Shown one piece after another: positions 4,226 through 24,507 of a DNA stretch of 64,000 bases (position 1 is the stretch's first letter; each line of letters starts with the position of its first letter). Source of the DNA: Methylophilus rhizosphaerae (lineage in GTDB: Bacteria; Pseudomonadota; Gammaproteobacteria; Burkholderiales; Methylophilaceae); NCBI RefSeq assembly GCF_900100975.1, contig NZ_FNFX01000003.1:434001-498000 (forward strand). Reading direction: 5' to 3'. The notes under the pieces were generated by a model. The model saw only the letters and a program-made list of their open reading frames with translations, had not been told where the DNA came from and ran no database searches. The position numbers and the translations under genes were made by a program.

Positions 4226-5170
4226 ATGAGTACCGTTCTGGCATTGATTGAACAATTTGGCCTGATTTTTGTGTTTGCCAATGTGCTTCTGGAGCAACTC
4301 GGCTTGCCTTTGCCAGCCTATCCCACATTGCTATTGGCTGGCGTACTGATTGGCAATGGCCAATACCCGTTTGGCCTGCTGCTGGCGGTTGCGGTATTTT
4401 CCGCCCTGCTGGCGGATACTGCCTGGTATCTGGCTGGCCGCAAGTACGGTAAAAAAGTATTGGGCAAGCTATGTAAAATCTCGCTTTCCCCGGATACCTG
4501 CGTCCGCCAGACTGAAGCGCTATACCTCAAGCTCGGCCCGCCGGCATTACTGGTTTGCAAGTTTATTCCCGGCTTCGCGTCCATTTCCAGTGCGTTAGCG
4601 GGTGCTGCCGGGACGCGTTACTGGGTATTCATGCTGATGGATGGTCTGGGTGCTGCATTATGGGCAGGATCTGCCCTGTGGCTGGGCTATTTATTCAGCT
4701 CCGCGATAGACCAGCTTATGCTGACACTGGTGGAAATGGGCAAATGGGGTACTTTGCTGGTACTGGCTTTGCTGGCAGTGTTTATTGCCTCTAGATGGTG
4801 GGACAGGCAGCGCTTTATCAAAAGCCTGCGCATGGCACGTATCAGTGTGGAGGAGTTGAACGACCTGATTAACCAGGGAAGGATGCCGGTCATCCTGGAT
4901 ACGCGTGCCACGCATCTGGTCGATGATGGCTGGATTCCAGGCGCACAGTTTATTACGCTGGAGGAGGTCGATAGCATGACGCTGGATATTGACCAGGATA
5001 CACCGGTGGTGCTGTATTGCGCTTGCCCCAATGAGGTCACTGCGGCCAGGGTCGCCAAACGGCTGATTAACCGGGGCTACCGCAATATCCGGCCCTTGAG
5101 TGGCGGGATTGATGCCTGGCGGGATGCCGGGTATGTGGTTGCCATGCCGGAAAAGGAAGAACATGTTTAA
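4226..5170 (+). CDS. DedA-family membrane protein fused to a rhodanese domain
   Basis: 314 residues. Residues about 1-190 are a DedA/SNARE-associated membrane domain (re-entrant E-Q-L-G-L-P-L-P near residue 20-30, and the conserved F-I-P-G-F-A stretch near 112). DedA proteins are implicated in lipid scrambling and envelope homeostasis. Residues about 205-305 form a rhodanese domain with an apparent active-site Cys in Y-C-A-C-P-N-E (near 264-266); rhodaneses transfer sulfane sulfur or act as sensors. Its stop overlaps the start of the RND pump gene by 8 bases, so the two are co-translated. What the fusion does for the pump is not known. Confidence 0.9.
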   Translation: MSTVLALIEQFGLIFVFANVLLEQLGLPLPAYPTLLLAGVLIGNGQYPFGLLLAVAVFSALLADTAWYLAGRKYGKKVLGKLCKISLSPDTCVRQTEALYLKLGPPALLVCKFIPGFASISSALAGAAGTRYWVFMLMDGLGAALWAGSALWLGYLFSSAIDQLMLTLVEMGKWGTLLVLALLAVFIASRWWDRQRFIKSLRMARISVEELNDLINQGRMPVILDTRATHLVDDGWIPGAQFITLEEVDSMTLDIDQDTPVVLYCACPNEVTAARVAKRLINRGYRNIRPLSGGIDAWRDAGYVVAMPEKEEHV

Positions 5171-8339: not shown

Positions 8340-9492
8340 TCTTTCCCCCCGTCCTTCCCGTACATTAAAAGTGAGCGGAATCTGTGCCGCGCTGATGGCT
8401 GTGGTTATCGTGATTATTGGGATCAATACACGTGCCGGCCACGATGCCAGATTGAAAGACTGGACAGACCGGCAGGCCGTGCCAACCGTGAGTGTCAGCC
8501 AGCCTGGCGGCGCGATTGAAGGCAACCGGCTGATTTTGCCCGGACGTTTTGAAGCCTATGCCCGCGCCCCGATTTATGCCCGTGTGAGCGGTTACCTGAA
8601 AAACTGGAAAGTGGATATCGGTGGTGCGGTGAAAACCGGGCAATTGCTGGGCGAAGTGGAAACGCCGGACCTGGACCAGGAACTGTTGCAGGCCAAAGCC
8701 GACCTGGCCAGTGCCCAGGCTAATGTCAGCCTGGCAGAGACCACCGCCACCCGCTGGCAGAACATGCTGAAAACCCAGTCGATTGCCCGCCAGGAAGTGG
8801 ATGAGAAGGTCGGTGACTATCAAAGCAAACAGGCGATTGTAAAAGCGGCGGAAGCCAATGTGAACCGGTTGCAGGCCCTGAAAAGTTTTGCCCGTATCCT
8901 GGCCCCCTTTGATGGCTCGGTGACGGCGCGGAATACCGATACCGGTGCCCTGATTAATGCCGGTGGCAGCACGGCATTGCCGTTGTTTGAAGTCTCGGAT
9001 ACGCGCAAATTGCGCCTGTATATCAATGTGCCGCAAAACTATGTCAGCCATATCAAGCCGGGTGGCAAGGCGACCTTTGCCGTACCAGAATACCCGGATG
9101 GCAATTATGAGGCGACTATCCAGTCTACCTCAGGTGCCATCAATGCGTCGTCAGGCACGACCCTGGTACAATTGCTGGTAGATAATGCAACCGGCAAATT
9201 CCTGCCGGGCGGCTTTGTCAATGTCACCCTGCAGTTTAATGATAAAGCCGGTATTTTAAGTATTCCGGCCAGTGCGCTGATTTTTGACCAGCATGGGCTC
9301 AAGGTTGCTACCGTCACCGCCGACCATAAAGTGTCGCTGAAAACCGTGACCATTGCGCGTGATTTGGGTAAAACGCTGGAAATCCAGGCTGGCCTGTCCG
9401 CAACGGACAATGTGATTGAGAACCCGCCGGATGGGGTGGGCGAAGGTGACCTGGTTAAAGTCGCAGAGGCCCCGGCTAAAACCGCTAAATAA
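8332..9492 (+). CDS. RND efflux periplasmic adaptor subunit
   Basis: 386-residue membrane fusion protein partnering the RND pump. It has an N-terminal membrane segment (about 15-32), a lipoyl half (A-R-V-S-G-Y near 88), a helical hairpin (about 120-185), the second lipoyl half (A-P-F-D-G-S-V) and beta-barrel plus membrane-proximal domains. The start at ATG 8332 follows AGGAGA (8321-8326) and overlaps the pump stop (8337-8339); the longer in-frame extension upstream lies inside the pump gene and is not protein-like. The gene order pump-then-adaptor is reversed relative to acrAB. Confidence 0.92.
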   Translation: MTNLSPRPSRTLKVSGICAALMAVVIVIIGINTRAGHDARLKDWTDRQAVPTVSVSQPGGAIEGNRLILPGRFEAYARAPIYARVSGYLKNWKVDIGGAVKTGQLLGEVETPDLDQELLQAKADLASAQANVSLAETTATRWQNMLKTQSIARQEVDEKVGDYQSKQAIVKAAEANVNRLQALKSFARILAPFDGSVTARNTDTGALINAGGSTALPLFEVSDTRKLRLYINVPQNYVSHIKPGGKATFAVPEYPDGNYEATIQSTSGAINASSGTTLVQLLVDNATGKFLPGGFVNVTLQFNDKAGILSIPASALIFDQHGLKVATVTADHKVSLKTVTIARDLGKTLEIQAGLSATDNVIENPPDGVGEGDLVKVAEAPAKTAK

Positions 9493-9542
9493 ATCTTGCT
9501 ATTAAATCCTGGGTCGCCGGCTAGCTCTGCCCGGGTGAGTAT

Positions 9543-9914
9543 CTAGCGTGACAGGATCAGCCAGACACTTAAGGCGGTTGCCGAAAGGCTGACAAATACA
9601 TTAACTGCGGGCGGTAGCCAGAACAGGTAGCCGCGCGGTTTTTCCTGGTCGCTCAACGTTTTACAGAAAATAATGAACTGGATTGCAGCCAGCAGTGCCG
9701 TAACCGCACCGGTCAGGATAAAGCCGACACCGATAAACAGGGATAGGGTACTTTGCGCATCTGGCAACGTGCTGTCATGGGCCATCAGTTTAATAAATAA
9801 CCCGAAGCGCTCAATCACAAACCCGAACCCCATCAGCGCAATTGCCGTACGCTGCCAGGCTAATAGTGTGCGTTCTGCCGCGAAGTAGACACGCGGATCA
9901 TCAAGGTAAGACAT
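9543..9914 (-). CDS. DUF202 family inner-membrane protein (YidH-like)
   Basis: 123-residue protein with the DUF202 signature near its N-terminus (A-A-E-R-T-L-L-A-W-Q-R-T) followed by three hydrophobic helices. Function of the family is not established. The start chosen is ATG 9914 (MSYLDDPRVYF), directly before the conserved region; ATG 9944 would add ten residues and cannot be excluded since neither has a strong ribosome site. Converges with the RND operon. Confidence 0.8.
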   Translation of the reverse strand: MSYLDDPRVYFAAERTLLAWQRTAIALMGFGFVIERFGLFIKLMAHDSTLPDAQSTLSLFIGVGFILTGAVTALLAAIQFIIFCKTLSDQEKPRGYLFWLPPAVNVFVSLSATALSVWLILSR

Positions 9915-10012
9915 TGGAAACACCCCAGAAATCGAGGTGGCCATTTTACGACTTAGGCAGGCGTTTTGCCTAGCCAAGTCGCAAAATGGATTAGCCGCGG
10001 GTTGTGGGGCGG

Positions 10013-10186
10013 TTAAGCGAACAGGCTGATGCCAAGCACCGCCATAATTGCAACGCCTATGGCCAGGATCAGAAAGATAAAGAAAAAGACTTTGGAAATG
10101 GTGGCTGCGCCAGATTCAATATTACGAAAGCCAAGCAGACCTGCAACAATGGAAATCACAAGAAACAGCAAAGCGTAATACAGCAT
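10013..10186 (-). CDS. DUF1328 small membrane protein (YtjA-like)
   Basis: 57-residue protein reading [20 protein letters not shown]... with two hydrophobic helices and the family phrase G-L-L-G-F-R-N-I. It matches the DUF1328/YtjA family of small inner-membrane proteins, often stress-induced; function unknown. A perfect ribosome site (AGGAGAT, 10194-10200 on the complement) lies 7 bases before the ATG. It reads towards the DUF202 gene, 98 bases away. The 217 bases upstream (to 10403) hold no gene that I can see. Confidence 0.85.
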
Positions 10187-10403
10187 GGGACTTATCTCCT
10201 GATTTTATTCAACGTAGGGAGATCATAAAAGGCGATATGCCTATTGGATATAGGCTGTTTACCGGATGGGCGGTAAGAATTAGCCTACGTTCTGCTTTGA
10301 AGATGTGGACGGTTGCAGCACAGGCCTGCTGTATATGCCAGTAGAGGGCATGGGTGATTGTTCCTTCTGACCAGCACGCTGCTATTGGGATGCTGGCGTT
10401 ATT

Positions 10404-11183
10404 TTAGGGGTGATGGAGGTCCAGTGTACTCAGCCGTTCCAGCTCCGAGACGTTTTCTGAGGAGTGGCATTCCAGCGTTCTCAGGCTTTTTTCGTCAAAC
10501 GTCAGTTTCTCTACCGTGTTGATATTGCTGGCAAATTTATTATCAAGTTCGCCACACTTCTGCGTTCTTCGGTTAACAAAATCCAGGTAATCCTTTTTGA
10601 TGAGTTGCTGCTGTGAAGCTGTCATCGAACTATCGTTCATCACTTGTGTATAAGCACTTCTGAGTCTGAGTTCAGATACACTCCATATGCTGAACACAAT
10701 GGTATGCCTTGAGGTGTCTATTTGTACTGGCTCTTGTGTCGTATGCGTTTCGGTTACGACGCTTCTGTGGACTCGGGGGTTCTTGGCTGCAGGTGACAGC
10801 GGGCGGGTATGCGTTTCCGTCACCGGCGACGCGGGTTCATCGTTTTCCTGATGTTGCTGGCGGGACACGTTGGATTCTGCCGGTGCAGCGCTGGCCGGCG
10901 CTTCCTCCGGTGCCGTGGTTTCTTCAGCGGTGGTGGCCACTATCCCGGCTGCCGGCTGGGTCTGAATACGTAACGGAGGCTCTTCCTCTTCGATCCTGCT
11001 ATGGTCTTGCGACAAGAGGGTCAGTAATATCACCCCGATCAGCGCGATGAGGATAAGGTTTATTTTGCCGATTTCAATGACTCCGCGCTCATGATCCGAA
11101 GACTTGGGACAGCAGGACTGATCTTGAGTAGCCCCACTATTTCCGCATTGATTCCATACGCTCTTGGATAAAAACAATCTCAT
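10404..11183 (-). CDS. Unrecognised single-pass membrane protein with Pro/Ala/Glu-rich linker
   Basis: 259 residues, not recognised. Residues 1-34 are polar with two cysteine-rich spots; a hydrophobic helix (about 40-58) is followed by a 90-residue linker rich in Pro, Ala, Glu and Thr, in which the phrase V-T-E-T-H-T occurs twice. The C-terminal 100 residues look folded and helical, with two cysteines (in T-Q-K-C-G and L-E-C-H). The layout (N-in, C-out, with a periplasmic C-terminal domain) resembles LprI- or TonB-like periplasmic proteins, but no family call is justified. Only a weak ribosome site precedes ATG 11183, so the true start is uncertain. Confidence 0.6.
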   Translation of the reverse strand: MRLFLSKSVWNQCGNSGATQDQSCCPKSSDHERGVIEIGKINLILIALIGVILLTLLSQDHSRIEEEEPPLRIQTQPAAGIVATTAEETTAPEEAPASAAPAESNVSRQQHQENDEPASPVTETHTRPLSPAAKNPRVHRSVVTETHTTQEPVQIDTSRHTIVFSIWSVSELRLRSAYTQVMNDSSMTASQQQLIKKDYLDFVNRRTQKCGELDNKFASNINTVEKLTFDEKSLRTLECHSSENVSELERLSTLDLHHP

Positions 11184-11375: not shown

Positions 11376-11786
11376 TCATTCATCCTCACTAAAGGCATCA
11401 TGAAATTCTTCCGGTGCGACCACTTCTTTCATGCGCATTTTCTGTATGAACAGTACCCCTTCTCTGGTAATCTGGCTCCCACTGGACCGCCTGCCCTCAC
11501 GCACATCGCCATTCGCGGTCAGCGGGCGCCTGAATATTTCCTGGTGATAGCGCAGTGAAGCTTCGCCTATGCCTTTCCGTTTGCACTTTTCCAGATCCAG
11601 CACCGTGAGCAGGTAATACTCGATGCCGCTGGGCATTCTCACGCGCTTCAGGTCAATCACGCCCATGGGTTCCGTGCCCTGGAAGACGGAAATTTCCTCG
11701 CCGCTGTCATTCAGGCGGATGGAGTATGTCTGACCGTCTTTGGCCACAAATTCTTTTTGATGCATATGCGGGGTTCCTTTGTTCAT
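11376..11786 (-). CDS. Unrecognised protein, GNAT-like middle segment
   Basis: 136 residues from ATG 11786, which has AAGGA 8 bases upstream; ATG 11765 (MHQKEF) is the alternative, also with AAAGGA. A longer frame runs back into the symporter gene and is unlikely. The centre contains L-T-V-L-D-L followed by K-R-K-G-I-G-E-A-S, which resembles the acetyl-CoA loop of GNAT acetyltransferases (R/Q-x-x-G-x-G/A), but the leading R/Q is a Lys and the fold cannot be confirmed by eye. It follows the SSS symporter gene on the same strand by 100 bases and may be the last gene of that operon. Confidence 0.55.
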   Translation of the reverse strand: MNKGTPHMHQKEFVAKDGQTYSIRLNDSGEEISVFQGTEPMGVIDLKRVRMPSGIEYYLLTVLDLEKCKRKGIGEASLRYHQEIFRRPLTANGDVREGRRSSGSQITREGVLFIQKMRMKEVVAPEEFHDAFSEDE

Positions 11787-11886
11787 GACGCAATCCTTTG
11801 CATGCTGGTGGGGCTTGCATGGAAAAGAATGGGAGTAAGTATAGCCGTTTTGCCTGCAGGTGATGCGATGTCGTGCTAAAAAGCAG

Positions 11887-13356
11887 TCATGCCTTGTCTG
11901 CATCGCTCAAATTGCGGAATATCTGGTTAACCCTGGCCAAGTCCGGTGGGGTTTGCTTGACCCAGAAACTCAGGGCCAGGTAGATGGCCAGGTTAAAGGG
12001 CAGGGCAACCACGCCTGAAGTTAATCCATAAGGCAATTTAGAGGCGTAATACACTTCTAGCAAGACCGCCATTAGAAACCCTGCGCTCATGCTGCAGATG
12101 GCGGCATGCTTGTTGCCGCGTTTCCAGAACATGCCCAGGAACTGGGGAACGGAGAGTTGAATGATGCCTTGGTATGACAACACTGCCAGGGAGAATAATG
12201 CGGGGAGTTGCAGGCACGCCAGCCATGAGCAAAGCAGTGTGATGGCTAGCATGCATATCTTGGAAACAATAATCAGCCTGTGTGAAGACCTGACGCCCAG
12301 GCCCCTGAAAATATCGTTTGCAATTTGGGCACCGGTTGCCTGGATGTGGCCATCGATATGCCCCATGGAAGCTGCCATGACAATCATGCCGGCAAGGCCA
12401 AGCAGGATATATCCTCCCGCTTGTTTGGATACCAGGAACCAGACACCCTCCGGATCTGCCGCGACTTCCGGTAAGGCCGAAGCGAGCATGCAAAAGATCA
12501 GGAGTGATGTACAGAACATGAATGAGATCGGGACGGTATGGGCTGCTGAGCGCTTGAGGGTATTTACATCTTTGGCAGTGAACAGCCGCACAAAAATATA
12601 TGGCCAGCACCAGCCTCCCAAGGTGCCTGTGACCACAATCGAGAACAAGTAAAGCGGTCCTTCATCATCCCCGAATCCGGATAAATGAAAACGGGATTCC
12701 GGCAGTGAATCGAACCCGATCCCCTGGGCAAAGACTAGCCACAGAATCAGTCCAATCAGCATCATCGTCCCGAATATATAGGAAACGATACCTTGGTAAT
12801 AATCCGAGATCACCACCCCGTTCATGCCGATTTTGATCGTCCAGATCTGCCGCAGGGCAATCACCATGACGCCCGTAAAAACGGATTGGGAGAATGAGAG
12901 CGATCCTAGGGAAAGAAATTTAAATATCTCCCCCAGGGCTTGCATGCTCAGGATAAGCATAGGGATGCCGGAAATGATGCCAATGGCCGCCGTGATGATG
13001 CGGATATTGTTTGAGTTATAGCGCAAGGCAAAGAAATCGGGCTGCGTTTTGAGGTCGTACTGCTTGCCCCATGCCCATACCGGCCTGGCCATGATGTACA
13101 TGAGTATCAGGGTGAGCAGGCTGTAATTCAGCACGTAAAAGCTCATGACACCATTCATGACTGCCATGCTGCCCCATGCGGTGAACATCGCACCTGGATA
13201 CCAGGTGTTCAGCAGGGACATTGTCTGGTATTTGGTACCAAACGATCGATTGCCAATGGCGTAGTTTGAGAAGTTAAAGGACTCAGCCCCAATGCGTTGC
13301 AGAATGCATACAAGTACGACTAATGAGATCGACAGGATGCCGAAGGTGACTATCAT
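11887..13356 (-). CDS. Sodium:solute symporter (SSS family)
   Basis: 489-residue membrane carrier with about 13 hydrophobic helices. The early Y-A-I-G-N-R-S-F stretch and W-Y-P-G-A-M-F-T-A-W-G are typical of SSS carriers (PutP/PanF/MctP group), which bring organic acids, amino acids or similar solutes in with sodium. It starts 6 bases after a small DUF3311-like gene, the usual companion in this group. A close paralogue of both genes lies at 22.7-23.4 kb, where the carrier is truncated. The substrate is not readable. It belongs to an operon headed by an XRE-PAS regulator, so the signal sensed and the solute carried may be related. Confidence 0.9.
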   Translation of the reverse strand: MIVTFGILSISLVVLVCILQRIGAESFNFSNYAIGNRSFGTKYQTMSLLNTWYPGAMFTAWGSMAVMNGVMSFYVLNYSLLTLILMYIMARPVWAWGKQYDLKTQPDFFALRYNSNNIRIITAAIGIISGIPMLILSMQALGEIFKFLSLGSLSFSQSVFTGVMVIALRQIWTIKIGMNGVVISDYYQGIVSYIFGTMMLIGLILWLVFAQGIGFDSLPESRFHLSGFGDDEGPLYLFSIVVTGTLGGWCWPYIFVRLFTAKDVNTLKRSAAHTVPISFMFCTSLLIFCMLASALPEVAADPEGVWFLVSKQAGGYILLGLAGMIVMAASMGHIDGHIQATGAQIANDIFRGLGVRSSHRLIIVSKICMLAITLLCSWLACLQLPALFSLAVLSYQGIIQLSVPQFLGMFWKRGNKHAAICSMSAGFLMAVLLEVYYASKLPYGLTSGVVALPFNLAIYLALSFWVKQTPPDLARVNQIFRNLSDADKA

Positions 13357-13582: not shown

Positions 13583-14953
13583 TTATGTAAATACCAGCAG
13601 CATAGAAACATCAATGTCGGAAGCGGTTGATCCAATCACCTGGATGTCCACTTTACGATGTTGTGTTTCATCGCTTCCGTTGATTAATAACCTGCCCTCT
13701 ATACGCCTGGCGTCCCCTAATTCGTTTATTTCCAGAATCTTGCTGGCAGTTTCATGATCGAAAATCGTAGTCAGCGGCAGGTCTTTTATCTGCGGATGCT
13801 TGATTCCCGATAATGAGGCAAACCTGTCATTGACGCGTTGGATACCTGCCTCGTTAAATGCAACCACCCCAAAAGAATTTTGCTGGTACAGGCGCTGGAG
13901 TTGCTCATGGCTTCTTCTCAGCCTTCTTTCGGTCTGTTTTAAATCTGTAATGTCCTGGTTGACTTCAATGGCACCAATAATCTTTCCCTCCGGATTGATG
14001 AGCGGTGTCGCATACATGATGATGCTACGTGGTACGCCATCAAATGCCTCAATGTTGACTACTTCAGCCTCGCTGATTTCACCGGTTTTTACCGCTCTTG
14101 CCAGGGTCCAGTCATCTTTTGTTAATGCTTGCCCGCTTTTTTCCCAGGTGCCTTTGTACAAGCCATAGTTTTCTAATCCTACATATTTGGCGCCTCCCCA
14201 GATCCTGATGACTTCCGGGTTGGCCAGGTTAATGACGCCGTTCTCGTCGGCCCCCCACAAGCCAACCGGGATGGTTTCTATAATTTTCCGCATCATGTAT
14301 TCACTGCGCTCCAACGCAAATTCGGCTTTTTTGCGTTCAGTGATGTCTGCGGTCACCCCAATGACCCGCAAAGGTATATTTTGCGGGTCAAGTACCAGCT
14401 TTGCCCGCGATGCAAACCATTGTTCGCCAGAGTCGGGGGCTTCTGTTTTGAAGTCCCATAAATAGCCATTCTGGCTGGTAAATAATTCAATCAACTCCTC
14501 CAGTGGCAAGGAAGCAAAGGGCGCAAACCTCTCCCGAATGGTGTCAGGCCGGCGACCAAATACAGACTCTGCATTGTCAGAGAAAGTGAAGGTGCCGGTA
14601 AGCGCATTCCACTCCCAGTTAATAATCTGGGCCATCTCAAGCGCGGTCTTCATCCTGGCCTCATTCAGCATGATCCTGTCCAGGTACTCCCGGCGTAAAT
14701 CTGACTCCGTTTCGCTTTCGGGTACTGCTGTACTCGCAGTGCGGATGGCCTCATCGCCATAACGCAACCAGATCCAGTTCACCTCCAGGAAAGTGGCTAA
14801 TGCCAGCAAGTTGTCATATTCAATCTCCCCCCCTTTGGTCCATCGGTGAACTGATGGTGGTGAAGTATTAATCGCCTGGGCAACTTGCGCCAATGTGAGT
14901 TTTTTTTGCTCCATGAGCGCCTTCAGGCGGTCCGGAAATCCATTCTTTTTCAT
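13583..14953 (-). CDS. XRE-type HTH regulator with three PAS domains
   Basis: 456 residues. Residues about 5-60 form a helix-turn-helix of the XRE/Cro type (L-T-L-A-Q-V-A-Q-A-I-N-T-S-P-P-S-V-H-R-W). Three PAS/PAC modules follow, each ending in the D-I-T-[ED] phrase typical of PAC motifs (about residues 200 and 325), the third running to the C-terminus. There is no kinase, GGDEF or sigma-54 domain, so it is a one-component sensor-regulator. ATG 14953 has TAGGG 6 bases upstream; ATG 14959 is the alternative. It is divergent from the cupin/520-residue/porin operon and leads the symporter operon, so it probably controls both. Confidence 0.82.
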   Translation of the reverse strand: MKKNGFPDRLKALMEQKKLTLAQVAQAINTSPPSVHRWTKGGEIEYDNLLALATFLEVNWIWLRYGDEAIRTASTAVPESETESDLRREYLDRIMLNEARMKTALEMAQIINWEWNALTGTFTFSDNAESVFGRRPDTIRERFAPFASLPLEELIELFTSQNGYLWDFKTEAPDSGEQWFASRAKLVLDPQNIPLRVIGVTADITERKKAEFALERSEYMMRKIIETIPVGLWGADENGVINLANPEVIRIWGGAKYVGLENYGLYKGTWEKSGQALTKDDWTLARAVKTGEISEAEVVNIEAFDGVPRSIIMYATPLINPEGKIIGAIEVNQDITDLKQTERRLRRSHEQLQRLYQQNSFGVVAFNEAGIQRVNDRFASLSGIKHPQIKDLPLTTIFDHETASKILEINELGDARRIEGRLLINGSDETQHRKVDIQVIGSTASDIDVSMLLVFT

Positions 14954-15003: not shown

Positions 15004-15070
15004 ATTCAATCAAAACCGATCTTAACATGCCTCTAAATTCTAAAAACGAATCTCATTTGTTACTTTACAC

Positions 15071-15111
15071 GTAATTTATAACTTGACAAGTAATTTATTT
15101 CAGCCTATAAA
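15071..15111 (+). promoter_or_regulatory. Sigma-70 promoter with flanking direct repeats for the cupin operon
   Basis: TTGACA at 15083-15088 and TATAAA at 15106-15111 with an ideal 17-base spacer. GTAATTTAT occurs twice (15071-15079 and 15090-15098), 19 bases apart, on either side of the -35 box, a good place for a regulator to bind. The start of transcription would be near 15118, leaving a leader of about 80 bases before the cupin gene. Confidence 0.7.
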
Positions 15112-15199: not shown

Positions 15200-15640
15200 A
15201 TGAAAAATACATTATTAATCAATGCATTAATCGTTGCATTCGGGATGGGTGGTGCAGTATCAGGCTATGCCCATGGCGGCGATGTTAAGCAAGAAGAGAA
15301 GCAACTGAAGTTCATTAAAAATGGCGGTAAGACGCCCGTTAAAACACAACTGGAACAAGGCATTAATGCTTATTTTGACGACGTAGTGGGTTCAGGCGAT
15401 GCGCAGGCGCCCATTTCATGCGGCCTGTTCCGTATCGAAAAAGGCAATCCGCTCGTGTACTTGTATGACTATGACGACATCAAGTATGTCATCAGCGGTT
15501 CAATCACTTTCTCGGATGGCCAGCAAACTGTTGAAGGTAAAAAGGGCGACGTACTGTTTTTCCCCAAAGGGGCAAAAATCACCTTTTCTACCAAATCTAG
15601 CGGCCTGGCCTGGGCATGTGGTCAAAGAAAACTGTTTTAA
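15200..15640 (+). CDS. Secreted cupin-domain protein (EutQ-like barrel)
   Basis: 146 residues. The start is ATG 15200, 5 bases after GGAGA (15191-15195); the upstream extension covers the promoter and is not coding. Residues 1-21 are a signal peptide (…SGYAHG). The rest is a single cupin barrel with Y-V-I-S-G-S-I-T-F, G-D-V-L-F-F-P-K-G and F-S-T-K-S-S-G-L-A-W, closest by eye to the EutQ/DUF861 cupins. Few His residues are present in the usual metal motif, so metal-dependent catalysis is doubtful; ligand binding is more likely. First gene of a three-gene operon with a secreted 520-residue protein and a porin. Confidence 0.8.
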   Translation: MKNTLLINALIVAFGMGGAVSGYAHGGDVKQEEKQLKFIKNGGKTPVKTQLEQGINAYFDDVVGSGDAQAPISCGLFRIEKGNPLVYLYDYDDIKYVISGSITFSDGQQTVEGKKGDVLFFPKGAKITFSTKSSGLAWACGQRKLF

Positions 15641-15685
15641 CTCTTAACTCATTTATCTAAAAAAAATCGATCAGGAGATGAAGAA

Positions 15686-17248
15686 ATGAGTAAGAGAAAG
15701 CAACAGTTAATGGCTGCCTTCTCCTTCTGCCTTGGCGTTAGCCAGACGCATGCAGGGGGGGCGGGTGTAAATCTGCAAGACTTAACCAACGGCGATCCAT
15801 TTTTCTATACGAGCGATATTAATATCGCGCCAGGTGACAAGATGGAGAAGGTTTTAGGTGCTGGACGGCCAAATAAAACGCACTCCGGCATCCCGCACTT
15901 GCCGGTGTATTTCGGCTACATGAATACGAACTCGACATACCGGTTTGTAAACGTGAACGAACAGGTATTCACCATGATTGGTGAAGGGAAGCATGGCCTT
16001 TGGCGAGCACAAGAATCTGGTTTTGTGCGGGAATACCTCAAAAAAGGCCAGAAAGGGCTACCTGTTGATAGCGACCTGATGGCTGCCCAAAACCAGAAAA
16101 TGATCAATGAACAATATGCAGCACGTTTACCTGATGAAAGCTGGGGAGGATACAAATACCCGGATCAGAAAATATCTGCTGATGGTACGTTGAATTTCAT
16201 TGATCTGCCCATTACCCACCCTAAATACCAGGGCAAGTACGATAGCCATACGCCTATCGACTTGCCCACATGGTATTGCACGATGTCGGAGAGTGACTAC
16301 CCCTATGCCCAGCAGGCGATGAACTTTGCTTTCGCCCAGGAGGTGGCTAACAAAATTGGCCCGCTGGGGAAACGTGCCGGCCTGGATGTGAAGGAAAACT
16401 ATACCAAGGTCATTAGGTTGAAACATTTTTCCGATGCAAGTGCATGGGTCAATATCGGCCAGGAAGGTAAAAATCAATTACATGCCAAGTGGACAGCAAT
16501 CAATGCTGATAAAACCAGGGCTGAGTTTTATGTGGTTGAGCGCAATTTCTTTAACCGCCCCTTCCTGTTTGTGATGGCTGTATTTGACAATGAGGATAAT
16601 CAGGACTTCCGGTACATCAGGCCAGATGGGGCCTATTACGAGGCTATCAAGACGCGCATTAATCCGGCTGAGGTGAAAACAGAGGTCACCTCGCAGCCAA
16701 GATTCTGGCTGAATGATGGCTCACTATCTAAAGCTGTCGGTTTACCGGTTTATGGCGTACACCATCCAGATCGTGCCGCTTACGATGCGGGTGGTGCTTG
16801 TCCGCTCAAAGGTGGCGACTGGGGCAGATATCCCAATGTCTCCGGCGGCTCCGGCTGGCCAACCCAGTATGAGGAAGTGACCCCGCTGTGTGATGCAGTA
16901 CTCGTGGATATTAAATTCACAACAAACCTGGATGGCCGCGATTGGCGTGATCCCAATAAATACCTGGCAAATGCGGGTAAGGGCACTCAAAGCATCGTCT
17001 ACAAGATGCAACCTGGCAAGTATGGTGAATTCACTGATCCATACAACAAAAAACGGGGCGCGATGAATGGCGAAAGTATGAATGTGCCAGACACGCTGAC
17101 GTTGACTTTTCCTGCCGTAAGTAAACCAGTCGATTATGTTCAGCCACCACAGTTGCTGGGACAAGCTGGGCCAGTACCCACTGAATTATCCACATGCCGT
17201 CCGGTGATTAACCAGGCATCTTTTGACAAGGGAGTGATAACAAAATGA
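15686..17248 (+). CDS. Unrecognised 520-residue secreted protein
   Basis: I do not recognise this family. Residues 1-23 are a signal peptide ending T-H-A/G-G. The mature part is rich in aromatic residues, Asn and Gly, with no membrane helices or repeats. Four cysteines (198 in W-Y-C-T-M, 372, 402 and 504) could form two disulfides, as expected in the periplasm. Other notable spots are H-H-P-D-R (near 356), G-G-D-W-G-R-Y-P (near 377) and T-N-L-D-G-R-D-W-R-D-P. It has a good ribosome site (AGGAG, 15673-15677) and its stop overlaps the porin start by 4 bases. Neighbours suggest a role in binding or processing a solute that enters through the porin. Confidence 0.85.
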   Translation: MSKRKQQLMAAFSFCLGVSQTHAGGAGVNLQDLTNGDPFFYTSDINIAPGDKMEKVLGAGRPNKTHSGIPHLPVYFGYMNTNSTYRFVNVNEQVFTMIGEGKHGLWRAQESGFVREYLKKGQKGLPVDSDLMAAQNQKMINEQYAARLPDESWGGYKYPDQKISADGTLNFIDLPITHPKYQGKYDSHTPIDLPTWYCTMSESDYPYAQQAMNFAFAQEVANKIGPLGKRAGLDVKENYTKVIRLKHFSDASAWVNIGQEGKNQLHAKWTAINADKTRAEFYVVERNFFNRPFLFVMAVFDNEDNQDFRYIRPDGAYYEAIKTRINPAEVKTEVTSQPRFWLNDGSLSKAVGLPVYGVHHPDRAAYDAGGACPLKGGDWGRYPNVSGGSGWPTQYEEVTPLCDAVLVDIKFTTNLDGRDWRDPNKYLANAGKGTQSIVYKMQPGKYGEFTDPYNKKRGAMNGESMNVPDTLTLTFPAVSKPVDYVQPPQLLGQAGPVPTELSTCRPVINQASFDKGVITK

Positions 17249-18144
17249 AAAGCAAATTAAGCTGTTTGTTGTATGTGGCGCTTTCTGCTTTTGCTGCAAC
17301 GAATGCCAATGCAGACCAGGCAGCAGAATATGGTGCCGCAGAAGGTATGGTTGAAACAGGGCCGGTAAAGGCTGCCAAACAATCAATGGATATCGCGCAA
17401 TACCTGGATGGGGATGAGTTCCTGGGAGGTAAATTCTCGACCTGGATTGAACTCGCTTCGGACTATGTTTATCGAGGTACTTCTGAAACCAGGGATGGTA
17501 AGGTTCCTTCAACTAAGGTTGCAATTACCTGGACCCATTCCAGTGGCGTATATCTTGGCTTGTATAGTGCCAATAACTTATTTCCTGGCAATGGGCCAAG
17601 AAATAATAACCCTGACATCAATGCGCTTTGGGGGCCATATATCGGATATAGCACCAAAGATATTGCTGGTACCGGCATTAACTATAACGGGATGATTTTC
17701 CAGTATATGTATCCTGGATCGAGCCCAAATAACTATGCAGAAATGTTTAACTACATAGACAAGCAATATGGAAAGTGGAATTTGAAGTTTGAATATACAC
17801 CGACTATTAGTGACTGGTTCGGTGTTAAGAGCCTCAGGTCACACAATGTAGCATTTCTGCCCAGTTATAGCCTGCCCTATGGCGTCACTTTGTCAGGGGG
17901 CGTAGGTTACCAATGGTTTAAAAATGACGGTCCAAAAATTGACTACAACGGCGATGGTCATCAAGACCTGAACTGGTGGCACTGGAACGTGGGTGTTAAC
18001 CGCAAGGTATTTGGCTATCTGGTAGATTTACGCTACCACGATACCAACATCAAAAAAGGTGAGCACGATCTATATGGTAATACTGACGCAAGCTGGCATA
18101 CCGTTAATCCACGTTTTGTGATTGCGGTATCCAAATCATTCTAG
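17245..18144 (+). CDS. TorF-family outer membrane porin (TIGR02001-like)
   Basis: 299 residues with signal peptide (cleavage near N-A-N-A/D-Q, residue 24) and a barrel domain beginning near residue 62. The phrase L-A-S-D-Y-V-Y-R-G-T-S is the hallmark of the TorF/gcw_chp family of putative porins; alternating hydrophobic strands continue to a C-terminal Phe (S-K-S-F), the outer-membrane insertion signal. It overlaps the 520-residue protein gene (ATGA), so the two are co-translated. A clear terminator follows. A specific substrate is unknown; the operon as a whole looks like an uptake or binding system. Confidence 0.88.
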   Translation: MKSKLSCLLYVALSAFAATNANADQAAEYGAAEGMVETGPVKAAKQSMDIAQYLDGDEFLGGKFSTWIELASDYVYRGTSETRDGKVPSTKVAITWTHSSGVYLGLYSANNLFPGNGPRNNNPDINALWGPYIGYSTKDIAGTGINYNGMIFQYMYPGSSPNNYAEMFNYIDKQYGKWNLKFEYTPTISDWFGVKSLRSHNVAFLPSYSLPYGVTLSGGVGYQWFKNDGPKIDYNGDGHQDLNWWHWNVGVNRKVFGYLVDLRYHDTNIKKGEHDLYGNTDASWHTVNPRFVIAVSKSF

Positions 18145-18519: not shown

Positions 18520-21018
18520 ATGAATATGCACCCTGATAAGGGGATTCAGAATATTGACTCGATGATTAGCTTGCCCATTGAGGGTATGACCTGTGCAAGT
18601 TGCGTAGGCCGTGTAGAGGGTGCTTTGTCCAAGGTGCCTGGGGTCGGTAAAGTTTCAGTCAATCTCTCAACCGAGAAAGCCAGCATTCAAGCGGTAGGCA
18701 TGGTTGATCGTAATGCACTTATTCAAGCTGTTGAAAAAGCCGGGTACGATGTTCCTGCGATTACAATTGAACTCAGTGTTCAGGGTATGACTTGTGCCTC
18801 TTGTGTCGGGCGGGTGGAGAAAGCCCTAAAGGCACTCCCTGGTGTAGTTGATGCAACCGTCAATCTTGCTACAGAACGGGCAACTGTTCGTGGCACAGCT
18901 GATGTTAGTGCCTTGATATTTGCAGTTGAGAAAGCTGGCTATGATGCCAAGCCTATCAATGCTTCCAATCTGGACGAAGAGGAGGCCAGTCTCAAAAAAG
19001 AGACAGAGCGCGTACAACTTCAGAAAAATTTGTTACTAGCCACGGTGCTTGCACTACCTGTGTTCTTACTCGAAATGGGATCTCACATGATCCCAGCAGT
19101 ACACGAGTTAATCATGAACACCATAGGCATGCAGAACAGTTGGTATTTCCAGTTCGCACTGACCACATTGGCACTCGCAATTCCAGGGAGAGGGTTCTAT
19201 CTCAAGGGCTTTCCGGCACTATTTCGCCTAGCCCCGGATATGAACTCATTGGTTGCGGTGGGTACAGCAGCAGCCTTTGGTTACTCAGTGGTGGCTACTT
19301 TTGCTTCTGATCTATTACCTGAAGGGACTGTGAACGTTTATTACGAAGCGGCAGCGGTCATTGTCGTATTGATTCTGCTTGGTCGTTTCCTGGAGGCTAG
19401 TGCCAAAGGTAGGACATCTGAAGCTATCAAGCGCCTTGCCAAGATGCAGGTCAAAGTAGCGCATGTCATGCGTGATGGTGGCTTCCTGGATATTCCAATC
19501 AATGAAGTGCAGCTACATGACGCGCTGGAAGTTCGCCCGGGTGAGCGCGTACCTGCAGATGGGGAAATCACCAATGGTAAAAGCTTCGTGGATGAGTCCA
19601 TGATTACCGGTGAACCCATCCCGGTTGAGAAATCTGCGGGTAGTACTGTGGTGGGTGGCACAGTGAATCAAAAGGGTGCCTTCACTATGCGTGCAACAGC
19701 CGTAGGCGGGCAAACGATGCTAGCGCAAATCATCCGTATGGTTGAGCAAGCACAAGGCTCCAAACTGCCCATACAGGCAGTCGTTGATAAGGTGACCATG
19801 TGGTTTGTGCCTGCGGTAATGGTGGCTGCTTTGTTAGCGTTTGCTGCCTGGATGATTTACGGACCTTCTCCGGCGCTTACCTTTGCTCTGATCAATGCAG
19901 TTGCTGTATTAATCATTGCCTGCCCGTGTGCCATGGGGTTGGCCACGCCAACTTCCATTATGGTCGGCACAGGACGCGGTGCCGAGCTTGGGGTACTGTT
20001 CAGGAAAGGCGAAGCACTACAACTGCTAAAAGACGCCAAGGTGGTTGCAGTGGACAAGACCGGTACCTTAACTGAGGGTCGTCCAGTATTGACTGATTTT
20101 GAAGTTGCAGAAGGTTTTGATCGTAGCAACGTGCTGGCAAAGGTGGCCGCAGTGGAATCTAGATCAGAGCATCCGATCGCTAGGGCGATTGTGGCAGCTG
20201 CAACTGATGAAGGCTTATCCTTGTCGTCACTAATAGATTTCCAGTCTGTGACTGGCATGGGTGTACAAGCCACCGTTGAAGGTTCTATCGTCGAAATTGG
20301 TGCGGATCGCTTTATGCGTAAACTAGGCCTGGATGTCAGTACCTTTGCCGAAACTGCAGAGCGCCTGGGTAGGGAGGGCAAGTCTCCGTTATATGCCGCA
20401 GTAGATGGCAAATTGGCAGGCATTATTGCCGTGGCAGACCCTGTTAAAACGACTACACCGGTTGCCATCGCAGCACTTCATCAATTGGGCCTCAAAGTGG
20501 CCATGGTTACTGGAGATAACACCAGGACAGCGCAAGCGATTGCTCAACAGCTTGGTATTGATGAGGTGATTGCAGAAGTGATGCCTGAAGGCAAAGTCGA
20601 GGCAGTCCGCCAATTGAAAGCTACATATGGCCAGATTGCTTTTGTGGGCGATGGCATCAATGATGCACCAGCCCTGGCTGAAGCCGATGTCGGTATTGCG
20701 ATTGGTACTGGTACGGAGGTGGCCGTTGAGTCAGCAGATGTAGTGCTGGTGTCCGGTAACTTGCAGGGCGTACCTAATGCGATTGCACTATCCAAGGCAA
20801 CGATAGGAAACATTCACCAGAACCTGTTTTGGGCATTTGCGTATAACACGGCCTTAATACCAGTGGCTGCAGGCGCACTTTATCCAGTTTGGGGGATATT
20901 GCTCTCGCCAATCTTTGCGGCAGGTGCCATGGCCTTGTCTAGCGTGTTTGTATTGGGGAATGCATTGCGTTTACGTGGATTTCAGCCGCAATTTTCTGAA
21001 GTGCCGAGTGTTGGCTAG
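18520..21018 (+). CDS. copA: Copper-translocating P1B-type ATPase
   Basis: 832-residue ATPase exporting Cu(I) from the cytoplasm. Two N-terminal heavy-metal domains each carry G-M-T-C-A-S-C (near residues 25 and 90). The actuator loop has T-G-E-P (near 364), the ion channel C-P-C (about 468-470), the phosphorylation loop D-K-T-G-T-L-T (near 512) and the hinge G-D-G-I-N-D-A-P (near 709). All key residues are present and the length is usual for CopA. It is followed, convergently, by a CopZ-like chaperone gene. An AT-rich island starts just downstream, and copper genes are common cargo of such regions. Confidence 0.96.
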
Positions 21019-21377: not shown

Positions 21378-21488
21378 TTAAGCATAATCTGTTTTAAAGC
21401 TTTGTACGCGGTCTGCAATCTCTCTTTTACTTTTAGCTAATAGCTCAATCTCTTTCTCAGTAAAAGGCGCCTTGGATGTTGGACTTTT
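21378..21488 (-). pseudogene. Possible fragment: orphan 36-codon tail
   Basis: On the complement, a reading frame with no start codon reads ...P-F-T-E-K-E-I-E-L-L-A-K-S-K and on to a stop at 21378-21380. It overlaps the end of the LuxR-type gene in another frame. The charged helical sequence looks protein-like rather than random, so it may be the C-terminal remnant of a lost gene. I cannot name the parent family. Confidence 0.3.
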
Positions 21489-22503
21489 TTACATCTAAGG
21501 CTATTGGAGGTGAGCTTGAGGAGAAGTTAGGGTAATTGCTACTATCAAACATTCTAACAAGTTCTGCTTTATTGCCTATGCCAAGCTTCTCATATATTTT
21601 TTGTATATAGTTTCTTACTGTAGCTGGGGTTAGACTATAGTCTAATGCAATTTCTTTATAAGTTTTTGCTGAAGAATATGCATGTGCAATTTGGCGTTCA
21701 CGAGAGCTGAGTTTTTCAATTAATGATAAATTTTTTATGTCAATTTTGTATAAGCCACCAACTTCGCTTTTCTCCACAATTAACTTTTGCTGCTTCTCGG
21801 TAAGTAAATTTACGATTGGTTTGCTAGTAAATTGAACCGGCAATTTTTCACCAAAACTCCACCAAGGGTAAGCTTGTGATATTAAATCTTTAAAAGCATC
21901 GCTAGTGCACACGACAGAGCCTTCTCGGTCAACAAAAGCAACTGCACCCTGCCTATGGTTTTCCAGTTTTGATCTCTCGATTGCGGCCACAAGATTGGTC
22001 TTCCAGCAAGCATATAGATGAGGTGTTATTAGTTGCTTTAAATCAATATCTGCTTCTTTAAATGGTATTGGGCTGTCGCCCGAGCGAAAAAGTGAAATGA
22101 ATAAGAAAGATTGGTGATCAGGTAGAAAAATAGATGTGCAAAGTGCTTGATGCAGTTTGAAAGTATTATTCAGACTGGATAAACCAGATGTTGAGTAAAG
22201 GTCTCTTTTACAAAAGTGTATAGTGGTTTCAGGCTGTAAATGCACACTACTAGCTAAAGTATCATCGGCACAAACTGCCTTCCAATGTTCTTCAAATGCC
22301 GCAGGTAACTCATATCTTAATGAGCTTAACAGTTTAAAACCTTTTGAAGGAGCTTGGCTCATAATGCCCCACCAAGCATGATCAAAACCAATAACCTCAT
22401 TAAGTTTATCTAAGACATTCTTCTGAAATTCATTAGGGCTCTCTACGAGTGCGGTTTGGTAAATGTCTGCTAAAAATGTAGGGGAAATCGAAAGTTGATT
22501 CAT
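21457..22503 (-). CDS. LuxR-type HTH transcriptional regulator
   Basis: 348 residues. The C-terminal part (about 265-325) is a LuxR/GerE helix-turn-helix (L-S-S-R-E-R-Q-I-A, then T-Y-K-E-I-A and T-V-R-N-Y-I-Q-K-I-Y-E-K-L-G-I). The N-terminal 240 residues resemble a GAF/PAS-like sensor of no recognised type, with a short PAS-like patch (A-V-A-F-V-D-R-E-G-S-V-V) near 190-201. Base composition is much more AT-rich than the flanking core genes. It is divergent from the small-protein/SSS module at 22.7 kb and is the likely regulator of that module, whose symporter is now broken. Confidence 0.85.
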   Translation of the reverse strand: MNQLSISPTFLADIYQTALVESPNEFQKNVLDKLNEVIGFDHAWWGIMSQAPSKGFKLLSSLRYELPAAFEEHWKAVCADDTLASSVHLQPETTIHFCKRDLYSTSGLSSLNNTFKLHQALCTSIFLPDHQSFLFISLFRSGDSPIPFKEADIDLKQLITPHLYACWKTNLVAAIERSKLENHRQGAVAFVDREGSVVCTSDAFKDLISQAYPWWSFGEKLPVQFTSKPIVNLLTEKQQKLIVEKSEVGGLYKIDIKNLSLIEKLSSRERQIAHAYSSAKTYKEIALDYSLTPATVRNYIQKIYEKLGIGNKAELVRMFDSSNYPNFSSSSPPIALDVKKSNIQGAFY

Positions 22504-22580
22504 ATAGTCATTTCAATAAATAAATACTGACTTCATTGATGAATGTACAACGATCAAGAGCAGATAAATAATCTCAGTCC

Positions 22581-22607
22581 TACCTTGCATTTGCAAGGTA
22601 TTTTTTT
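22581..22607 (+). terminator. Perfect terminator-like hairpin in the leader of the second SSS module
   Basis: Stem TACCTTGC (22581-22588) with GCAAGGTA (22593-22600), loop ATTT, then seven T (22601-22607). It reads rightwards, yet no rightward gene lies upstream: the LuxR gene runs the other way. It would therefore end a short leader transcript (attenuator), a small RNA, or a lost gene. Confidence 0.75.
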
Positions 22608-22708
22608 AGACATGCGCCACGCATAATAGTCGCAAAAAATATTTCAAGAATTACTGAGTGGGATCCATGTATGTAGTTAAAAATATGAATAACTAAAGGG
22701 GCAGCCGC

Positions 22709-22924
22709 GTGAAAGAAAAACCATCTTTAATTGTTAAATTGTGGTTCTTATTAAATACCGTTATTACATTAGCACCTCCAATCTACTGGTATGCAAATAA
22801 ACTGCAGCATCCAATCTTTGGCCTTCCACCAACAATATTTTATTTCTTGATAGTTGGCCTATCTATCACTACCAGCATTGTGTACGCATATCTTGATGAA
22901 AAAGAGAATGGAAGGATTGAATAA
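22709..22924 (+). CDS. DUF3311-like small membrane protein, second copy
   Basis: 71 residues with a GTG start (22709) 7 bases after AAAGGGG. Two hydrophobic helices and the phrase F-G-L-P-P-T-I-F-Y-F match the 64-residue protein at 13363-13557. Its stop overlaps the start of the truncated symporter (ATAATG), showing the two were once translated together. The gene itself is intact. Confidence 0.7.
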   Translation: MKEKPSLIVKLWFLLNTVITLAPPIYWYANKLQHPIFGLPPTIFYFLIVGLSITTSIVYAYLDEKENGRIE

Positions 22925-23430
22925 TGTTTATTACCTTCGGGATGGTAGTTATATTTTTTCTCGCACTTGTCGTCTTGTTACAAAGAATTCAAATAGACGA
23001 CAGCACTTTTTCCACATACGCAGTTGGCAATCGCGCATTCGATGCCAAATTCCAAGCAATGTCTTTTCTAAATACTTGGTATCCAGGAGCAATGTTTACT
23101 GCTTTTGGAGGTATGGCTGCAGCAAGTGGAGCAATATCCTTTTATGTCCTCTCCTACAGTTTGCTGACAGTGATGCTTATGTATGTCATGGCCAAAACAG
23201 TTTGGACTTGGGGAAAAGCCTTTGATCTTAAAACACAGCCAGACCTTTTCGCTCTTAGATTTGACTCCAGGCATATTCGCACCATTGCTGCAATTATAGG
23301 CATTGTTTCGGGCATACCATGGTTGGTTTTAGGCATGCAAGCATTAGGTGAAATGTTTAAATATCTATCTTTAGGCGCATTGAGTTTTTCGCAATCAGTT
23401 AACTCATTAAAGGCTGTTATTTTTCACTGA
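22924..23430 (+). pseudogene. Truncated SSS sodium:solute symporter
   Basis: 168 residues that align without gaps to the first 160 of the full-length symporter at 11887-13356 (shared W-Y-P-G-A-M-F-T-A, L-K-T-Q-P-D, M-Q-A-L-G-E and L-S-F-S-Q-S-V). Identity stops abruptly after S-Q-S-V near 23402; nine unrelated residues and a stop follow. More than 300 residues (about two thirds of the carrier) are missing, so it cannot transport. The sharp break points to a deletion or insertion junction, not to gradual decay. Confidence 0.9.
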
Positions 23431-23493
23431 CTGGATACAAATTCATATAAATATTTAAAGCTACATACTGCACACCCTCTTTCATCAAGGAGA

Positions 23494-23610
23494 ATGAAGG
23501 TGATACTTGAGCGCTATGCAAAACTACTAACCACCAAGTCAGTGGGTGAATGGTTTCAGGAGTTAATTAAATTAGCAAATGCATATGGATTTAATCAAAG
23601 CCCTCCCTAG
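23494..23610 (+). pseudogene. Short ORF resembling the start of a LuxR autoinducer-binding domain
   Basis: 38 codons with a good AAGGAG site just before the ATG. It reads M-K-V-I-L-E-R-Y-A-K-L-L and later W-F-Q-E-L-I-K-L-A-N-A-Y-G-F, which resembles the first helix of LuxR-type autoinducer-binding domains (…L-x-x-L-A-x-x-x-G-F). If so it is the 5' scrap of a quorum-sensing-type regulator. It ends with a stop and nothing downstream continues it. Similarity judged by eye only. Confidence 0.4.
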
Positions 23611-23975
23611 AAGCATAGTCTGTCGGATAGACGAAGCCATAACGTGACTAAGGGACGGAAGCATAAAGTGGTAATTAACAATATGCATAGAAAACGTCTA
23701 CAAACTAAGCGCTATGGCTTATGGCGCTCAGTATTTGGGTGCATCAGATGCAGCCGATTACTGGCCAAAATCCCAGGGGTGTATCGATTTTTTTGCACCT
23801 CCCATAGCCAAGCAAAAAACGGCTGGCTGATGATGGTAAATCCCTGTGGCAATCGTTGGCCGTTATGTCGGCTTGGCGTGGAAATTGATGTTTTTTTTGG
23901 GGGGGGGGGGCTTGTCCTTGAAACTAAATGATCCAACACACAAGCTCCTGACACCCCCTTTGCAATAAATGGTTG
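23611..23975 (+). other. Degenerate stretch with a G12 tract
   Basis: No intact gene. A frame around 23700-23830 reads protein-like text (A-M-A-Y-G-A-Q-Y-L-G-A-S-D-A-A-D-Y-W-P) before a stop, then G-K-S-L-W-Q-S-L-A-V-M-S-A-W-R-G-N and another stop; the parent gene is not recognised. Eight T and twelve G lie at 23891-23910, a hypermutable homopolymer junction. Together with the truncated symporter this marks a breakpoint region. Confidence 0.5.
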
Positions 23976-24470
23976 CTACTTGTTTGTTGTTGCTTTTTTT
24001 CTCGGGTCATCACTTGGATTTGTGTAATGGATATCCCAGGGGCCGGTAGCGATTAATTCAACAATAGTTTCTTTATCTGTCGTCCAGACATAATGTGTAT
24101 GGCCAGTTGGAAGCACGAAGCTAGAGCCGGCATTTAACAGTTCGCCTTTGGATTTGTCGAGCTTGGTTCCCATGCCATTACCTAACTGGCCGCTGAGTAC
24201 GGTCACCACTTCGGCAAATGGATGGGTATGTGGGGGAATTGGATAGTTGGCCGGAAATTTTAACCATGCGATAAATACTCCCTTTTTTGTCGGATCTCCT
24301 ACCACGATTGCACTCTGAGCGCCTTTGGGTAATATGGGCTCATCTTTCCATTCAATATTTTCGGGCGTGAATGAGCGCATGGAACTGGCGCTCATCCTTT
24401 CAATTTTGTCTGCGTACGCGATGTTACTAAAACATGAAACTGCGGCGGCTAGTATTAATATGTTTTTCAT
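23976..24470 (-). CDS. Secreted cupin-domain protein
   Basis: 164 residues from ATG 24470 (MKNILILAAAVS), which follows AGAGGATC; an upstream in-frame ATG at 24485 is unlikely. Residues 1-20 are a signal peptide ending I-A-Y-A. The cupin motif is classical: P-P-H-T-H-P-F-A-E-V-V-T-V-L-S-G gives two His and one Glu for a metal, and G-H-T-H in the second motif gives further His. It therefore could bind a metal and be catalytic, unlike the cupin at 15.2 kb. It is preceded by a perfect palindrome and stands alone in the degraded region. Confidence 0.87.
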   Translation of the reverse strand: MKNILILAAAVSCFSNIAYADKIERMSASSMRSFTPENIEWKDEPILPKGAQSAIVVGDPTKKGVFIAWLKFPANYPIPPHTHPFAEVVTVLSGQLGNGMGTKLDKSKGELLNAGSSFVLPTGHTHYVWTTDKETIVELIATGPWDIHYTNPSDDPRKKATTNK

Positions 24471-24507
24471 ATGATCCTCTGGCATAAATAAGATTGATTT
24501 AAATTTA

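Follow-up and report, generated by a model that had tools for sequence, protein, structure and literature searches.

A recurrent cupin–P520–TorF operon with a conserved double operator in Methylophilus rhizosphaerae and other proteobacteria

Within a 64,000-nucleotide stretch of the Methylophilus rhizosphaerae genome (contig NZ_FNFX01000003.1, positions 434,001 to 498,000 of the forward strand), hereafter the window, three genes lie in tandem and encode a small secreted cupin, a secreted protein of 520 amino acids (aa) that we call P520, and a TorF-family putative outer-membrane porin. We refer to these genes as the trio, and to the trio with its switch as the cassette. The features of the locus, in window coordinates, are the following.

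13583..14953, minus strand: regulator with an XRE helix-turn-helix and PAS domains, divergent from the trio, 456 aa; start set by alignment with relatives
15060..15074, no strand: operator palindrome 1, TTACTTTACACGTAA; all 11 XRE-type loci have the double site
15079..15093, no strand: operator palindrome 2, TAACTTGACAAGTAA, with the -35 hexamer inside
15083..15111, plus strand: sigma-70 type promoter, with -35 TTGACA at 15083-15088, a 17-bp spacer and -10 TATAAA at 15106-15111
15200..15640, plus strand: EutQ-like secreted cupin, single domain, without conserved His, 146 aa
15686..17248, plus strand: P520, secreted, 520 aa, fitting no tested family
17245..18144, plus strand: TorF-family putative outer-membrane porin, 299 aa, with an ATGA overlap with P520
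18192..18211, plus strand: intrinsic terminator from a motif scan, a stem followed by six T

The stop codon of P520 and the start codon of TorF share a common ATGA, and each of the three proteins carries a signal peptide, as judged by eye. A first-pass annotation of this DNA had described a 520-residue signal-peptide protein that follows a cupin, overlaps a porin gene and lies between a sigma-70 promoter and a terminator. The coordinates of the three genes and the length of P520 agree with that description, as do the TTGACA-N17-TATAAA promoter ahead of the trio and the terminator behind it, which has an 8-bp stem. Where four cysteines had been counted, P520 has five: C15 in the signal peptide and four in the mature chain. 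A divergent XRE-PAS regulator is indeed present; its start lies at about 14953 and not at 15028, and its first PAS domain is weak in the window copy (E 0.042) and clearer in that of locus L001 (E 7e-4). A generic motif scan of the window listed 10 promoters versus 12.9 in shuffled sequence, and 7 terminators versus 8.4. The trio promoter is missing from that list because the scan requires a T at the sixth -10 position. Since the scan totals are no higher than in shuffles, it is conservation across loci that supports the promoter.

We found no family for P520 among the curated families tested, in line with the first-pass annotation. Neither Pfam nor NCBIfam gives a match for the window protein at E ≤ 1, and the 21 rows of an alignment of members (A3), from which signal peptides were left off, gave scattered chance-level matches only when searched against both libraries at E ≤ 10 (best E 0.043 and 0.07). 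No PDB chain was matched at E ≤ 10 by the single sequence or by profiles of 9 and 21 rows, and the PHROGs gave a single chance match (E 0.23). SBP56, the methanethiol oxidase family, is a Pfam family, and P520, having no Pfam match, therefore has no SBP56 domain; we rejected this identity, as matches of the 21 members to Pfam families did not exceed chance (best single E 0.043). Two AlphaFold runs gave models with a predicted local distance difference test (pLDDT) score of 33 and 48, neither of them confident. By sequence P520 stands apart from the families tested, which does not imply a new fold.

P520 is about 60% identical between Alpha- and Gammaproteobacteria. Among 21 full-length members, 156 positions are invariant, counting the start Met. 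The fragments L022 and L056 were excluded from this count and from the P520 tree, and an over-long N-terminal call in L055 was trimmed for the tree and for the di-haem comparison described below. The invariant set includes seven His (H66, H71, H103, H178, H188, H359 and H360), three Cys (C198, C372 and C402) and several Trp. A further cysteine, C504, is present in 17 of the 21 members and absent in f241, a small-genome gammaproteobacterial family.

A comparison of gene neighbourhoods, which the first-pass annotation had proposed as a check, found the trio again in other genera, next to a sensor gene. We compared 18 neighbourhoods: the window and loci L001, L002, L003, L005, L018-L022 and L035-L042 (10 of the 33 annotated genes were used for L005, and L006 is a repeat of L001). 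The cupin lies next to P520 in all 18, and TorF follows P520 in 15 of the 17 that can be tested, L022 stopping at a contig end. All 18 have an adjacent regulator gene, of the XRE-PAS type in 11 and of a GAF-LuxR type in seven; regulator domains were checked by library search for the window and five other loci. All 11 XRE regulators are divergent, and the LuxR regulator is divergent and upstream in five loci and convergent and downstream in two, both alphaproteobacterial. Of the 10 XRE-type loci in which P520 and TorF are both intact, 9 show the four-base overlap of the two genes; none of the five LuxR-type loci with TorF does. The next commonest neighbour groups, dehydrogenase-like in six loci and kinase-like in four (both named by eye), vary in position, and the remaining groups are each found in at most 3 of the 18 loci. 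Because the identical gene order recurs in several families, the trio finding exceeds chance. The first-pass annotation had reasoned that a recurring trio around a protein without a known family would support a new system, and by that reasoning the recurrence, together with a P520 that matches no curated family, favours a putatively undescribed system.

The XRE-type intergenic regions share the arrangement TTACTTNNNNAGTAA-N4-TTACTTGACANGTAA. This double operator scores 21-25 of 26 consensus matches in all 11 XRE loci. Among the seven LuxR-type loci, the six scored (all but L005) reach 13-15, and 200 mononucleotide shuffles of every XRE-type region reached no more than 18. Across the XRE-type loci, the majority fraction per column is 0.86 in the operator versus 0.48 in its flanks, and the two halves are palindromic, with means of 5.45 and 5.36 of 7 pairs versus 2.0 elsewhere. 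In each of the 11 loci the -35 hexamer lies inside the second palindrome and is followed by TATAA after 17 bp (nine loci) or 18 bp (two loci). A relaxed operator pattern, allowing two mismatches, hits exactly one site in each of the 11 genomes and none in five congeners that lack the trio; the reversed pattern, used as a control, gave one match in each of 2 of 16 genomes. The pattern was built from those same 11 sites, so its informative part is the absence of further sites. Within the window there is no other half-site at two mismatches or fewer, and at three mismatches there are 6 versus 3.4 by chance; the paired, conserved arrangement alone stands out.

The LuxR-type loci carry a separate box, TAGGGGTTTTTTGTCA, which is exact in L019, L021, L041 and L042 and has one mismatch in L020 and two in L005; in L003 it is doubtful (five mismatches), and these box counts stand without a shuffle control. 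Given the separate boxes of XRE and LuxR loci, one cassette has been placed under two different regulators. Methylophilaceae and the Methylophaga family are methylotroph families, and both regulator types are present in both. On the P520 tree, regulator type changes label four times against a minimum of two, with fewer changes possible on its unresolved backbone. At a contig end in L056 (1-4443), a P520 relative readable from about residue 160 adjoins a divergent gene for a large regulator that is MalT/SARP-like by eye, and that regulator may be a third kind of sensor serving the cassette.

The cupin is EutQ-like in Pfam (E 4e-10), scoring 40 bits for PF06249 and 30 bits for PF05899 against cut-offs of 21 and 23.5, and matches PDB entries 4axo and 2pyt (E 1e-6). 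This likeness lies in the cupin domain; unlike EutQ, the cassette cupin is secreted and stand-alone, has 146 aa and no conserved His, and has no ethanolamine genes visible alongside it. Metal-dependent cupin enzymes hold their metal through His and Glu ligands in the cupin motifs (HxH). Among 22 cupin relatives no His column is conserved and two Cys are kept; the HxH position, placed by eye, holds Tyr or Asp, and single members have an isolated His elsewhere. We ruled out a metal-dependent enzyme such as a dimethylsulfoniopropionate lyase or a dioxygenase, given the lack of a conserved His in the 22 members. The third gene is a clear member of the TorF family (TIGR02001: E 2e-32, 113 bits against a cut-off of 47; Pfam Gcw_chp: 61.8 against 24). 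A Shewanella TorF is named as the outer-membrane porin of the trimethylamine N-oxide (TMAO) reductase system (PMC5955497, excerpt). In contrast, TorF is tied here to the cupin, to P520 and to a dedicated switch, and we saw no link to TMAO respiration.

Relatives of P520 were found on genome contigs of Methylobacillus sp. MM3, a Methylophaga metagenome-assembled genome and Microvirga massiliensis, and on one of 72,556 plasmid records (Paracoccus sp. TOH). A whole-genome search found P520 in 7 of 187 Methylophilaceae genomes, and it is absent from all 20 other congeners among those listed. It is present in 9 of 57 genomes of the Methylophaga family, in 4 of 6 of f241 and in 1 of 3 of f167. The order of Microvirga gave 1 of 297 genomes and its class 1 of 385, in both cases Microvirga itself. 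A class sample gave 3 of 369, window included, and a phylum sample 2 of 398: the window and genome G235, whose 23-residue match (E 0.008) we took as chance and did not count as a relative. In viral contigs, 55 stretches fit a pattern and none proved to be a relative, and none was found in phage records. The cassette is rare and patchy. In genome G040 (genus g7), P520 is 89% identical to that of G050 (genus g22) and 71% identical to that of G006, also of g7. The window trio has a guanine-plus-cytosine (GC) content of 44-49%, versus 52-56% in eight reference genes. The identities across genera and the lower GC would fit horizontal spread. Paracoccus strain TOH is termed a piperazine degrader in a reference title (PMC5172442); formamidase and AmiS genes near its P520 copy were considered as a functional clue and set aside, as they are not conserved at other loci.

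This distribution bears on two alternative explanations. The first is that the cassette admits a single methylated or nitrogenous compound for catabolism, by means of a pore, a periplasmic enzyme, a binding cupin and a dedicated sensor. The product would be consumed by housekeeping one-carbon (C1) metabolism, and no dedicated carrier would therefore be needed. Consistent with this, 16 of the 23 P520-bearing genomes or records belong to Methylophilaceae and the Methylophaga family, towards which sampling was aimed; the name of the Shewanella TorF (PMC5955497) points the same way, as does a double operator found at the cassette only. However, no catabolic gene is conserved beside the cassette, the cassette is patchy even in the family of the window, and the TMAO link is one of name. 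We regard this explanation as unlikely. The second is a role in envelope stress, protection or detoxification, with P520 and the cupin neutralising a toxic compound or a competitor's product. With its patchy distribution, its horizontal spread and a ligand sensor that governs a single locus, the cassette would resemble many detoxification genes, but an extra pore would admit more toxin, and none of the cupin, P520 and TorF has a PADLOC match at E ≤ 0.1. Such a role appears highly improbable.

In f241 the third gene is exchanged. All four P520 loci of this family (L055 and L057-L059) carry the cupin, then P520, then a gene for a 560-aa protein with two CxxCH motifs, and no TorF relative was found within these stretches. 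In L055 this di-haem gene lies at 5168-6850, directly after P520, and a TonB-receptor-like gene (by eye) lies upstream. The protein is weakly similar to MauG (E 6e-11) and MbnH (E 3e-10). Upstream, 4 of 4 loci carry a gene for SCO1 and one identified by eye as a phosphatidylserine decarboxylase, and no relative of the f241 SCO1 gene occurs in the other stretches fetched.

A comparable arrangement is known from methanotrophs, where MopE and CorA are each described as co-transcribed with a di-haem peroxidase-like protein, suggested to make the kynurenine used in copper binding, and structures have been solved for MopE/CorA (MbnP) members (PMC3912023, excerpt). The f241 loci alone resemble the pairs MopE-SACCP, CorA-CorB and MbnP-MbnH in placing a secreted P520, rich in invariant His and Trp, beside a weakly MauG-like di-haem gene. 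In contrast, a PDB profile search, which compares sequence only, detected no similarity of P520 to MopE, CorA or MbnP, and no relative of the f241 di-haem protein was found in the window and the 17 other loci, which carry TorF in 15 cases and the cupin in every one. The resemblance to MopE and CorA is, as far as analogy goes, a parallel and not membership. These observations raise the alternative that P520 is a secreted binder of copper or another metal, like MopE and CorA, assisted by TorF or the di-haem protein. Besides the di-haem gene, the upstream SCO1 and the methanotroph precedent, the seven invariant His and several invariant Trp of P520 are in keeping with metal scavenging, as is a heavy-metal P-type ATPase gene near the cassette in the window (by eye) and in L020. 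However, no PDB chain matches P520, no copper gene is common to the 18 loci, the SCO1 block lies 1.5-2.4 kb from the cupin in L058 and L059, and the regulators seem to resemble sensors of small molecules and not of metals. We consider metal scavenging unlikely. Both this explanation and the C1-substrate one overlap with the reading that we prefer.

The MtoX (SBP56) methanethiol oxidase of Methylophaga is described as clustering with SCO1 and MauG genes (PMC6548844, excerpt). The likeness is a periplasmic protein near SCO1 and MauG-like genes, again in f241 only, and Methylophaga relatives do carry the trio. P520 differs in lacking the SBP56 domain, and relatives of the f241 SCO1 and di-haem genes are absent from the other stretches fetched. 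An inducible operon of a secreted protein and a porin is of a familiar kind. For the P520 family, its two-regulator history and the exchange of pore and di-haem protein, we found no description in the open-licence literature among the matches listed, as judged by title and the start of the abstract.

Taken together, we favour the reading that the cassette is a self-contained, horizontally spread, ligand-switched envelope unit in which a periplasmic P520, built around a metal or redox centre, is served by a pore or a maturase, and we assign this reading a probability of roughly 0.4. The XRE-PAS regulator most likely sits on the two palindromes, one of which covers the -35 box, and would repress the operon until its PAS domains sense an intracellular inducer. 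Once derepressed, the operon would produce, in fixed order, the cupin and P520, both secreted, and the TorF pore, with P520 and TorF probably coupled in translation through their overlap. P520 most likely forms its metal or redox centre from the invariant His and aromatic residues, and most likely acts on, or captures, a small compound that enters via TorF. The cupin would be a small accessory or ligand-binding protein and not a classical metal cupin. In f241, the MauG/MbnH-like di-haem protein in the place of TorF may mature or re-oxidise P520.

Several points weigh against this picture. Repression by the regulator is suggested by operator position only, and in L036, an XRE-type locus of the Methylophaga family, the regulator (9008-10410) is split into two separate open frames with the operator retained. 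Relatives of P520 that are 56-98% identical would retain many residues by descent, and the conserved His are no proof of a metal centre. Position 341 is His in the other 20 members and Trp in the window copy, which also forms the longest single-row branch of the tree (0.5 versus a median of 0.11); the window P520 may therefore have drifted. TorF is missing in the two alphaproteobacterial loci. The di-haem gene occurs in 4 of 22 neighbourhoods and has no relative in the other stretches fetched; its product scores far under the curated cut-offs (42 versus 444 bits for MauG) and has no Pfam or PDB match. Finally, the GC content of non-trio neighbours is 48.7% for the XRE-PAS gene, 50.6% for CopA, 51.3% for the sodium/solute symporter (SSS) gene and 37.6% for a LuxR gene; as these neighbours are low in GC too, the entire stretch is unusual and not the trio alone.

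The first-pass annotation had also proposed a complete route that includes an inner-membrane carrier, the SSS symporter. This part finds no support. The symporter (11887-13356) has no Pfam match at E ≤ 1 and a sub-threshold NCBIfam match to sodium/solute symporters (E 3e-9), and its homologues were found in 3 of the 9 P520 genomes searched, the window's own included. It adjoins the cassette in the window only; in the other two genomes the gene lies on another contig, with no cassette within the 19-20 kb around it (L023 and L024). No operator half-site stands in front of it, and the double operator occurs once in the genome, at the trio. We therefore rejected the symporter as a cassette member. 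In L039, whose genome is outside the nine, a distant symporter (28% identity) lies about 2 kb from TorF. The window symporter is grouped with a downstream 175-aa gene (11376-13356 together) that matches neither Pfam nor NCBIfam at E ≤ 1, and in genomes G050 and G547 it is accompanied by a different small gene; carrier and small partner gene may form a separate module.

Other neighbours deserve mention. Past the trio terminator, 18520-21018 codes for a P-type ATPase in which two GMTCASC metal-binding motifs can be recognised by eye; a gene of this kind is not common to the loci. At 22924-23430 lies a truncated second SSS symporter gene. Over its first 159 residues it shares 65% identity with the complete 11887-13356 symporter, after which the similarity ends. 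It is grouped at 21457-24485 with a LuxR-type regulator (37.6% GC) and a second secreted cupin (23976-24485), in what looks like another acquired or decaying cluster. Beside the trio of Methylobacillus sp. MM3 (L001, 11007-14990) lie genes for a BenC/MmoC-like reductase and a MetX-like hydrolase, together with two genes judged by eye to encode alkane-monooxygenase-like and globin-like proteins.

The strong constraint on P520, with about 60% identity and 156 invariant positions in a rare, mobile, switched operon, points to one specific periplasmic job. The natural exchange of pore and di-haem protein hints at protein-cofactor chemistry of the MauG/MbnH type. It is conceivable, if decidedly unlikely on present evidence, that P520 is the first of a new class of periplasmic enzymes, with a MauG-type protein-derived or multi-His metal centre, and that it travels in a mobile module gated by a sensor, in which a dedicated pore and a di-haem maturase are interchangeable as the third gene. 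The dedicated operator makes the cassette directly testable: once the inducer is found, the substrate should follow. Were P520 indeed such an enzyme, the cassette would represent a previously unknown route by which methylotrophs gain a periplasmic reaction.

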